A stretch of 41,225 nt of DNA. It comes from Methanothrix sp. (GTDB taxonomy: Archaea > Halobacteriota > Methanosarcinia > Methanotrichales > Methanotrichaceae). The stretch is taken from the NCBI GenBank assembly GCA_029907715.1, contig JARYLI010000014.1:1-41225 (forward strand), written 5' to 3'. Of the stretch, positions 15,816 to 18,570 are shown piece after piece. Each line of letters opens with the position of its first letter. Within the stretch, counting starts at the first letter, position 1. The notes under the pieces are model-generated. The model was not told the origin of the DNA. It worked only from the letters and a program-made list of their open reading frames with translations, and searched no databases. The translations under genes and the position numbers were made by a program.

Positions 15816-16139
15816 ATGGAGCTTTTTGGAATATGTGCCGGATGTGGCAGGGCTGCAAAGCTCTACACATGCCAGCTTTGTGGCGGTCTCTTCTGTATTG
15901 ATTGCTTCGTCCCTGAGCTGGGCGTGTGTAAGAGGTGCGCCAGAGGAAGAAGGACTGGAAAAAACTATTTTTATAGACATTTCTCAGCGTGGGGACCGCG
16001 CATAAGGCATGCCGCTCCATTTAACATCCATGCGGGTGAATCCACACATCTGTCGCGAAGCCTTTTTGGGGCGAATGTTCGCGAAAACACATGCGTTTCA
16101 CAGGTGTCGATTCACACCAGGCTGGGAGTGAATGAATGA
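15816..16139 (+). CDS. Small zinc-finger protein with atypical tail
   Basis: A 107-residue frame. Residues 7-42 form a cross-brace-like zinc finger: CAGC, then CQLC, CIDC and CKRC pairs (CAGCGRAAKLYTCQLCGGLF is the first half), similar to HIT-type or B-box-like zinc fingers in archaeal orphan proteins. After about residue 48 the tail (NYFYRHFSAWG...) is unrelated in composition and runs through a long imperfect palindrome (16036-16115). It may have been added when an element inserted and destroyed the original stop. The role is unknown; protein or nucleic-acid binding is expected. Likely in one unit with the 15673 gene. Confidence 0.65.
   Translation: MELFGICAGCGRAAKLYTCQLCGGLFCIDCFVPELGVCKRCARGRRTGKNYFYRHFSAWGPRIRHAAPFNIHAGESTHLSRSLFGANVRENTCVSQVSIHTRLGVNE
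16036..16115. repeat. Long imperfect palindrome
   Basis: The arms GTGAATCCACACATCTG (16036-16052) and CAGGTGTCGATTCAC (16101-16115) are inverted repeats with small gaps. The inner part contains the palindrome TTCGCGAA. It may be a transcript terminator or a small mobile palindrome inside the 3' end of the zinc-finger gene. Confidence 0.45.
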
Positions 16140-16266: not shown

Positions 16267-16274
16267 TTTATATA
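16267..16274 (+). promoter_or_regulatory. Strong TATA box ahead of the small-protein operon
   Basis: The context gtaaactttatataccatag has an A-rich BRE-like flank and a consensus TTTATATA. Transcription should begin near 16296, about 29 bases before the first small gene. Confidence 0.6.
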
Positions 16275-16324
16275 CCATAGTGCCATGATGTTTGAGTGTT
16301 AAGAAGGGACTAAAATACTGCCTG

Positions 16325-16468
16325 ATGAGCGTGATCGCATTCGATCTGAATGCCATCACCGGGCATAAAAGGGGTAGCAACCTGGGGAGGTGCACGATTA
16401 ATTATTGTAGATTGGACTTTCTGGAAGAAGGGAGCCTGAAGGTCTGCTTTGTATGCGGAAGGGAGTAG
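16325..16468 (+). CDS. 47-residue zinc-ribbon-like small protein
   Basis: It starts MSVIAFDLNAITGHKRGS and carries four Cys in zinc-ribbon spacing: Cys23-x4-Cys28 and Cys41-x2-Cys44 (CTINYC ... CFVCGRE). It is the first gene after the strong TATA box at 16267 and stops two bases before the next ATG. I do not recognise the family. Metal binding is likely from the Cys pattern. The unbroken link to three further genes argues that it is real despite its size. Confidence 0.55.
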   Translation: MSVIAFDLNAITGHKRGSNLGRCTINYCRLDFLEEGSLKVCFVCGRE

Positions 16469-16470
16469 CA

Positions 16471-16659
16471 ATGAATGTCCGCTTTGAAGGGGGCGGACAA
16501 CGGGAAAGCGACCTCGTGCTGCAGTATACACTGCAGCCGATCCAATCCGGATGGGAAGGGCATCCGGTGAGGTACTTCAGATACGTATCTGAGTTAAGAA
16601 ACAGTCTTGAGCATGTGTATTTATCGGATGAAGATAGACGGGGGCTTGGATCTCGATGA
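16471..16659 (+). CDS. 62-residue protein, second gene of the small operon
   Basis: It starts MNVRFEGGGQRESDLVLQYT after a ribosome-binding site (ggaaggga, about 16458-16465). It ends with an ATGA overlap into the next gene (TGA 16657-16659, next ATG 16656). The middle is amphipathic and aromatic (GWEGHPVRYFRYVSELRNSL), followed by a charged tail. There are no Cys and no recognised family. Tight coupling on both sides suggests a stoichiometric partner of its neighbours. Confidence 0.55.
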   Translation: MNVRFEGGGQRESDLVLQYTLQPIQSGWEGHPVRYFRYVSELRNSLEHVYLSDEDRRGLGSR

Positions 16660-16814
16660 GAGGCCGCATCAAGCTGTTCACAATACCAGTCGATCTTGAG
16701 AATGCAGCGAAGTATAATATACAGGTTAATCCAGACCACATTGTGAATTATCGAAGTGTATGTAACAGGGAGAGGCCCCGTCAGATGATACATGCACTCC
16801 AGATCCACATGTGA
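16656..16814 (+). CDS. 52-residue basic protein, third gene of the small operon
   Basis: It starts MRGRIKLFTIPVDLENAAKY at an ATGA overlap with the gene before and ends 9 bases before the winged-helix gene. It is basic, with one Cys and a short Arg-rich stretch (RSVCNRERPRQ). The predicted mix is strand-helix-strand. No family is recognised. The overlap start is the main evidence that it is translated. Confidence 0.5.
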   Translation: MRGRIKLFTIPVDLENAAKYNIQVNPDHIVNYRSVCNRERPRQMIHALQIHM

Positions 16815-16823
16815 GGTCTGTCT

Positions 16824-17270
16824 GTGAAAATCGCAATAGAGATCGACGATAATGGTCTCAAGGCCAACATGTCGTTTGAGTTCGACAAGAAGTGCATGGA
16901 TGTGGCGGCATTACGTGAGATGCTCGCGGATAAGATTGTGGATATTCTGAACATCTCCGGCGTGATCTCAGAGAGCGCGCGGCCGGTTGCTGAAGAACAG
17001 CCGAAGACGCTGATGGACAGCCTGGCCGAGTTTATAAAATATGAATTCCGCGATCAGTGGTTCACATCCCAGCAGCTCAGAGAGAGGTATGAGACTGTTC
17101 GTGACGATATCAAGCTGAGCACGGTCTCGACCTACCTCTCCAGGATGCACCAGGATGGTATTCTCGACAGGAGGGGGAACAGAAACAACAGGGAGTACCG
17201 TCTGCTTTCGACAGCATCTGTGGAAGGCGCGGCTTACTCCAGAAAGAAACAATCCGCGTCAAAGCTTTAG
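16824..17270 (+). CDS. Winged-helix DNA-binding protein, last gene of the small operon
   Basis: A 148-residue protein from GTG 16824. The N-terminal part (KIAIEIDDNGLKANMSFEFD) looks like a small beta-sheet followed by a helix (VAALREMLADKIVDIL). After a linker, residues about 70-130 form a winged helix: FTSQQLRERYE, then the recognition helix LSTVSTYLSRMHQDGILDRR and the wing NRNNREYRLL. The C-terminus is basic (SRKKQSASKL). It is probably a transcription regulator, perhaps of its own operon. It lies 9 bases after the 52-residue gene. Confidence 0.75.
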   Translation: MKIAIEIDDNGLKANMSFEFDKKCMDVAALREMLADKIVDILNISGVISESARPVAEEQPKTLMDSLAEFIKYEFRDQWFTSQQLRERYETVRDDIKLSTVSTYLSRMHQDGILDRRGNRNNREYRLLSTASVEGAAYSRKKQSASKL

Positions 17271-17725: not shown

Positions 17726-18183
17726 GATCAGGCAGGAGTCGATACAAGTTTGGCGATTGATGGTGTGTTGTTTGATGAGCACCTTCAAAGGAACAAAATA
17801 ATCCATCTAAGAGTGTACTCAGCAAGAAACAGCATGACATCTCATGCATTCTTGAAAAGAGTCCTGAGCATGTGTAAGCCGGAGGAGATCGTTCTGGACA
17901 AAGGACCATGGTACAGAGACGCACTCTGCCGGCCTGGCGTAAAAGTCAGATACGAATCTTTTGGGGCTTCAACTTTGTTGAAGCCTCTCGACGACAGTCG
18001 AGAGTGACCGAAGCCTCGTTGAGTCTGTATTCTCCTCCTTCAAGCAAAGAGCTCTGCTCCATAACCGTGAACTTCAAACGCAAGGATAAGAAACCTGGAA
18101 GCCTGCGATGGACAAGAGCCATAGAATGCTGGAACAACTTCTGTAAAATGTTTATGTTCTACTATAACGTCGCAAGGAGGTAA
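17726..18183 (+). pseudogene. DDE transposase remnant (IS6/IS240-like), frameshifted
   Basis: Three reading frames together give a C-terminal transposase half. Frame one holds LAIDGVLFDEHLQRNKIIHL, a SMTSHAFLKRVLSMCKPEEI helix and the catalytic-type EIVLDKGPWYRDAL (Asp). From 18006 another frame gives DRSLVESVFSSFKQRALL, with the final catalytic Glu in VES. From about 18060 a third frame gives RWTRAIECWNNFCKMFMFYY to the stop at 18183. The N-terminal DNA-binding half is missing. At the first break two perfect hairpins are inserted (17965-18003). The element is inactive as it stands. Confidence 0.75.
17965..18003. repeat. Two back-to-back perfect hairpins inside the transposase remnant
   Basis: GGCTTCAAC-TTT-GTTGAAGCC (9-bp stem, 17965-17985) is followed directly by TCTCGAC-GACA-GTCGAGA (7-bp stem, 17986-18003). 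Removing 17966-18005 (40 bases) restores the motif FG-DRSLVES in one frame. Confidence 0.6.
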
Positions 18184-18570
18184 TAATGTTATTCGGACAG
18201 GTCCATCATGATTATGGAAATCTCTTTTACAGAATCGCTCATACGCTTCTCTTCCCGCACTCCTCCCCGGAGATGCACCCACCTCTGGCATACATTCCTT
18301 CTTCAGATCGAGCTGTTAGTTATTATCCTTCCTATCAGCTTGCATCTGCATCACGGAGCAATAATATATATTGTGTAATTTGATATTAATAAATATATGA
18401 CTTGTCTCTTATAATATGCAGGAAATGACCGGACAGCAGAGGGAGAGACAATCCCACTGCTGGTTCAAAGCAGCCACAAAAATCGCAGAAAACCAGGATC
18501 CATGAAGCCCCTGACAGGCCGATAGACAAACCCCCTCATCCACGGGATGGAGAACTCAAAGAAACAATCA
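18184..18570. other. AT-rich gap with no supported gene
   Basis: This stretch follows the transposase remnant. Its middle (18340-18420) is very AT-rich (aatatatattgtgtaatttg, and several TATA-like runs). A 29-codon frame from ATG 18418 (MQEMTGQQRERQSHCWFKAA...) follows a TATA-like run (ttataatatg) but is too short and unlike known proteins to call. Confidence 0.4.

Follow-up and report, generated by a model that had tools for sequence, protein, structure and literature searches.

The region upstream of a winged-helix gene in Methanothrix sp. is very probably the long 5′ leader of that gene's mRNA, serving as the base-pairing target of a dedicated trans-acting small RNA (sRNA) that would control its translation. 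The gene lies in a stretch of 41,225 nt, the whole of which we analysed and here call the window. An initial annotation had described a coupled four-gene operon at this place, with small proteins as its first three products and a winged-helix protein as the fourth; judged by comparison with related genomes, the actual layout is a leader, a short open reading frame (frame 3) and then the winged-helix gene (frame 4) (Table 1). The matched RNA pair, its co-evolution, and the predicted stems and promoters of the sRNAs can be read from genome sequences, and we infer that both RNAs are expressed and meet in the cell.

Table 1. Features of the locus, with coordinates in the window.
Feature	Position	Strand	Evidence
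TATA box TTTATATACC of the transcription unit	16267..16276	+	sequence
Untranslated leader RNA with predicted sRNA-binding sites	16292..16655	+	conserved non-coding DNA; sense-strand AAGGG motifs
Site 1, GAAGGGACT, pairs with sRNA 3′ tail UCCCUUC	16303..16311	+	duplex prediction
Frame 1, 47 aa, non-gene	16325..16468	+	frameshifts in relatives, codon bias absent
Site 2, AAAGGGGTAGCAAC, imperfect repeat of main site	16368..16381	+	duplex prediction
Site 3, GAAGAAGGGAG, pairs with sRNA 3′ tail	16424..16434	+	duplex prediction
Site 4 (main site), GCGGAAGGGAGTAGCAATGAA, 21 contiguous pairs (20 Watson-Crick, 1 GU) with sRNA loop	16455..16475	+	duplex prediction; conservation in genus
Frame 2, 62 aa, non-gene	16471..16659	+	stops or frameshifts in 5/5 same-genus relatives
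Hairpin TGTCCGC-TTTGAAGGGG-GCGGACA, presenting site 5 (16483-16493)	16476..16499	+	fold, duplex
Hairpin CCGGATG-GGAAGGG-CATCCGG, presenting site 6 (16554-16565)	16547..16567	+	fold, sequence
Frame 3, conserved short ORF (probable), 52 aa	16656..16814	+	22/30 family loci, third-position bias
Frame 4, winged-helix gene, 148 aa, GTG start	16824..17270	+	conservation in class; structure model

The TATA box and the four open frames, with gaps of 2, -4 and 9 bases, lie where the initial annotation had placed them. Its reading of the four frames as four genes holds for frame 4 and probably for frame 3, and fails for frames 1 and 2. Of five same-genus relatives, three (L003, L005 and L006) have frameshifts in frame 1 and all five have stops or frameshifts in frame 2, and the indels in both frames have lengths that are not multiples of three. 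Substitutions at codon positions 1, 2 and 3 number 17, 11 and 11 in frame 1, with no third-position excess, and 46, 55 and 64 in frame 2, with little excess; the same comparison gives 50, 24 and 145 in frame 4, a strong excess that marks it as clearly coding. Frame 3 has in-frame indels only and a weak third-position bias (12, 21 and 31) within the genus, where its 9-base spacing to frame 4 is maintained. Across the Methanothrix family it is found as an ORF of 46-56 aa with a conserved N-terminus, MRGHIKLFTLQMDLERA, in 22 of 30 loci (substitutions 63, 50 and 111), and it is probably a real short ORF. On this comparative evidence frames 1 and 2 are not genes, and the DNA beneath them is conserved nonetheless.

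The open frames and short gaps of this single genome are what the four-gene operon of the initial annotation would display. With frames 1 and 2 broken in close relatives and devoid of codon bias, the operon is refuted for both frames and keeps hardly any likelihood; small frames broken beside a retained winged-helix gene, as seen for frames 1 and 2, is also the pattern named beforehand as speaking against it. Because these two frames are broken and non-coding in relatives, the proposed 47-residue, Cys4 zinc-ribbon-like partner does not exist, and two of the three small proteins of the four-gene operon disappear with it. The ATGA overlap at 16656, once thought hard to explain by chance, joins frame 2 to frame 3 and is a chance overlap because frame 2 is no gene. 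A toxin-antitoxin-like module is likewise unsupported, as frames 1 and 2 are non-coding and the winged helix is near-universal in the class, not patchy. The regulatory theme survives, as does a transcription unit that begins at the TATA box, though without small protein partners from frames 1 and 2. The small frames were also said to lack a known family, and a Pfam search of them returned zero matches; a tRNA search of the window found none. The locus accounts for a stretch that gene finders may populate with spurious small genes.

We now turn to what is conserved beneath frames 1 and 2. Although both are non-coding, the interval 16270-16510 is conserved within the genus to the same degree as coding sequence. 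The leader's most conserved portion, 16450-16479, holds the main site, inside which frame 1 ends with its stop codon and frame 2 begins with its start codon. The conserved content is RNA, in the form of predicted sRNA-binding sites, and an untranslated leader is the best reading of the 0.5 kb from the TATA box to frame 3; we placed the start of this leader about 25 nt downstream of the TATA box. In other genera of the Methanothrix family, a stretch of 0.5-1 kb precedes the winged-helix gene, and nearly all family loci have a TATA box, located 484-1024 nt before the winged-helix start. The motif AAGGG occurs in 4-16 copies on the sense strand of the roughly 1 kb upstream of frame 4, as compared with 0-2 copies on the opposite strand; the array begins just past the TATA box, and the strand asymmetry is not seen downstream of the start of the winged-helix gene. 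In the family leaders, motif copies are placed in hairpin loops 2-5 times more commonly than with shuffled flanks (29% versus 16% for stems of at least 5, and 12% versus 2.5% for stems of at least 7). A comparison of the leader and the sRNAs with 4227 Rfam covariance models gave no convincing match, only nearby tRNAs and sub-threshold hits.

The repeats might act as DNA operators for the winged-helix protein, since they follow the TATA box as direct repeats and the fold of frame 4 is of DNA-binding type. We consider this very improbable: operators leave unexplained why up to 16 copies extend over 0.5-1 kb of transcribed leader, why they have a hairpin context, and why an antisense RNA matches them.

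The antisense RNA is encoded elsewhere in the genome. A search for tandem AAGGG motifs located a second locus with the near-invariant string GAAGGGATGGCACGAGATGCGAAAGGGAGTAGCAATGAAGGG, one per genome in most family genomes searched; the pattern used, RAAGGGR...AAGGG...AAGGG, has many chance matches besides the two conserved loci. In the window's own genome, this sRNA gene spans 169089-169208 of contig C2 (about 120 nt), flanked by a membrane-protein gene and trm1 (names from reading of translations). Conservation at the locus runs up to a TATA-like element, CCTAAAAYTTAATAA, which is conserved on the antisense side only, and ends past CCCUUCU at the other end; these limits therefore fix the direction of transcription. 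The predicted sRNA has two stems, covarying or conserved, the second of which holds an unpaired loop of about 31 nt around UUUAAUUACCCCCUUCAUUGCUACUCCCUUUCG, followed by a UCCCUUC tail. All eight pairs of stem 1 have changes on both sides, and the whole structure has 53 double changes versus 17 in shuffles (0 of 500 shuffles reach 53). The covariation of stem 1, together with the 31-nt unpaired loop, indicates that the RNA structure is conserved and leaves its pairing region exposed. A covariance model of the sRNA has matches in 48 of 50 family genomes, and the two misses are assemblies that are 66% and 81% complete.

A second sRNA carries the same antisense core on an unrelated stem and scaffold. 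In the own genome it is located on contig C3 (G000:C3) around 161843 (L253); its TATA box, GAAAACTTTATATT, is clear, and a stem runs into TTTTT, a putative U-run terminator. This sRNA is found also in L227-L230. It is clearly present in five of the six same-genus genomes, including the own, and G003 has a core with one mismatch. Both sRNAs, on C2 and C3, are thus separate genes unlinked to their target on C14, with TATA-like elements of their own upstream.

The predicted duplex between the sRNA and the leader is extensive. The loop pairs with the main site without interruption over its 21 bases, the tail pairs with site 3, and CCCCCUUC pairs with about 16486-16493. In the own genome, the loop-leader duplex has an energy of -46.4 kcal/mol, compared with -25.3 +/- 2.9 (sd) kcal/mol in 300 shuffled leaders, the best of which reaches -37.4 kcal/mol. 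Pairing is weaker elsewhere (z about -0.3 to -1.7 in L029, L013 and L011). Five of the six same-genus genomes contain the 16-mer AAGGGAGTAGCAATGA at exactly three places, once in the leader and in antisense in both sRNA genes; G003 has two exact copies and a third with one mismatch. Complementarity is beyond chance and co-evolving, and pairing between leader and sRNA is strongly supported by these sequence comparisons.

We judged target specificity by pattern searches for the 16-nt core in the genus genomes. The core was confined to the leader and the two sRNA genes, with no further strong target seen, which points to a dedicated pair and not to a broad regulon. This result bears on the idea that the leader acts chiefly as a sponge, titrating the sRNA away from other mRNAs. 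Methanothrix-family leaders have about 5-15 sites each, far above what a simple target needs, which speaks for a sponge; the outcome of the core search, and the one or two sites per leader in other families, speak against it. We consider a sponge quite unlikely, and a dedicated target remains our preferred reading.

In other families of the class (f2, f3, f4, f5 and f7), the leader of the winged-helix gene is short and carries a GAGGGGAU-type motif once or twice; in f3 the motif is present twice, at a spacing of about 35 nt. Among these families the leader site falls within about 20-100 nt of the start codon, and in f2 and f7 within a few tens of bases of it. We obtained sRNA candidates in these five families by searching the genomes for the complement of the leader core; consequently, their 10-14 nt core match exists by construction, and the independent evidence consists only of pairing beyond the core, stems, promoters and terminators. 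The f3 candidate has a TATA box and then a GAGGAAACGG stem, and the f2 candidate has a GGGGCA stem with a TATA box. A GGGGCA stem is also found in f4 and f5, followed by a U-run in some, while the f7 candidates have a GAATTCG stem. Pairing extends beyond the core through UGUUUCC with GGAAACA in f5, CUA and UGUG with UAG and CACA in f2, and ACCA with UGGU in f7. The longest runs between an sRNA and its own leader, taking the best genome of each family, are 18 (f2), 20 (f3), 15 (f4), 18 (f5) and 17 (f7) pairs; one f4 genome, G118, has just 9 contiguous pairs. The antisense core is found 9-10 times in f2 versus once in a reversed control, and in g18 and g19, which are of Methanosarcina size and do not have the winged-helix gene, it is not in excess of that control.

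When sRNAs were assigned to leaders, using one genome per family, the true family pairing had the lowest summed energy of all 720 assignments (rank 1). Several cross-family pairs are almost as strong as own pairs because the core GAGGGGAU is common to the families. The scaffolds and loci of the sRNAs differ between families, and the match to the own leader is retained. By this comparison, a matched leader-sRNA pair recurs with co-ordinated changes in six families of the class. As separate observations, several f7 genomes have two different sRNA candidates each (L304, L305, L309, L310, L287 and L317) with a common CCAUCCCCUC loop core, and L132 and L137 of f3 have an extra hairpin with an antisense core, CCATTCATCCCCTC, in its loop, away from the main sRNA gene.

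A core shared by f2-f7 could also be a protein site. The G-rich loop motifs would then bind an RNA-binding protein in a CsrA-like manner, possibly the strongly conserved winged-helix protein itself in an autoregulatory arrangement, and the antisense RNA would be secondary; motif copies in loops on varied stems are compatible with this. But far more sequence is conserved than a protein motif would take up, this sequence is a base-for-base counterpart of the sRNA loop, and its flanking bases covary with the sRNA between families. A protein site is unlikely as the main explanation, and we continue with the sRNA as the partner of the leader.

The sRNA would act by exposing its C-rich single-stranded loop and tail, which would pair with leader sites of the GAAGGG/GAGGGGAU type; the window has six predicted sites, including one 21-bp core. 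In the Methanothrix family, the G-rich stretch before frame 3 is likely the ribosome-binding site of frame 3. Binding of the sRNA would most likely reduce translation of frame 3 and, via frame 3, that of the winged-helix protein. Because the site is near the start codon in f2 and f7, G-rich stretches of the same type come before frame 3 in the Methanothrix family, and frame 4 follows frame 3 after a 9-base gap in this genus, repression is the simplest reading, and we lean slightly towards it; the alternative is activation, by opening of the leader structure. On a broader scale, we tentatively propose, at somewhat below even likelihood, that a one-to-one sRNA-mRNA pair is ancient and has persisted throughout the class, its two members co-evolving at the level of single bases as the sRNA scaffold and genomic position were replaced between families. 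The Methanothrix-family leader would then have expanded to an array of about 5-15 sites, with control by sRNA stoichiometry and possibly a loop in which the winged-helix protein acts on the sRNA genes.

The winged-helix gene is found in 148 of 200 class genomes (30 of 37 genera) and in 51 of 61 relatives; it is absent from Methanosarcina-like genomes (g18 and g19) and otherwise present throughout the class. Three genomes, G008, G013 and G018, have two copies each. The modeled protein has an N-terminal beta-hairpin and helix followed by a winged helix, over which the pLDDT is 84-92. Frame 4 had only sub-threshold Pfam matches, and a fold search with the winged-helix model gave generic MarR/ArsR/MecI-like winged helices, none at an E below 0.001; therefore, we assign no specific function to it.

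In the bacterial sponge RNAs CsrB and RsmZ, a single RNA presents many motifs of GGA type, in one hairpin loop after another. The present leader has the same kind of arrangement, whereas its motifs are matched by a complementary RNA and its array is part of an mRNA leader, not a free RNA. In Methanosarcina mazei, sRNA162 is an intergenic sRNA with stem-loops and a single-stranded pairing region; its binding masks the ribosome site of its target, the bicistronic mRNA MM2440-MM2441, in which an ORF precedes a gene for an ArsR helix-turn-helix regulator (PMC3510493). Here too, a structured sRNA has a single-stranded pairing region, and the regulator gene comes second, preceded by an ORF. In contrast, the winged-helix gene is missing from the Methanosarcina-sized genomes, the sRNA gene is unlinked to its target whereas that of sRNA162 is adjacent, and the pairing is longer, covers many leader sites and recurs in six families. 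We therefore rejected an identity with sRNA162, whose target and context differ and whose homologs were found in Methanosarcina species only (PMC3510493). Two other M. mazei sRNAs, sRNA154 and sRNA41, act in trans through pairing loops and mask the ribosome-binding sites of some targets, which include several mRNAs (nif, gln and ACDS) (PMC5867862); for the present sRNA we see a single dedicated target. The predicted pair works like these M. mazei sRNAs and is none of the three.

A search of openly readable papers found no description of the motif or the sRNA. The sRNA may be listed, unrecognised, in a published transcriptome table; a Methanolobus dRNA-seq study reports 195 sRNAs (PMC5378194). 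As far as sequence comparison goes, the new elements here are the six-family spread, the exchange of scaffold and locus with the match kept, and the many-site leader. Target-assigned methanogen sRNAs in the searched literature are reported from Methanosarcina only. To our knowledge, targets have been identified for few archaeal sRNAs. The present pair can be followed across six families, its two RNAs changing in step, and this is evidence that archaeal regulation by trans base pairing is old and under selection. The pair is a ready test system in culturable relatives, and its many-site leader poses the question of how multiple sRNA sites on one mRNA act.

Several neighboring elements were also seen. 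In f3, f4 and f5 (L169-L186; L266 at 10263, L267 at 12259 and L269 at 10074), the winged-helix gene is preceded, at a distance of about 250-300 nt, by a solitary element, ACCCCYTTRTTTCNANTGGAAA, that resembles an archaeal origin recognition box (ORB); similar elements are paired at other places in some f3-f5 genomes. A link to a replication origin was considered and rejected: ORB-like elements near the gene are limited to f3-f5, and neither the window nor any of the four family loci scanned has one; they therefore remain outside the explanation. Directly upstream of the unit, at 15816-16139 of the window, is a 107-aa ORF whose N-terminus is rich in cysteines and resembles a zinc finger. A transposase remnant lies beyond the winged-helix gene on its downstream side, at 17750-18183 and 18065-18212; its end is 97% identical to DNA adjoining the second sRNA gene in L230, and the same element therefore lies near both partners.
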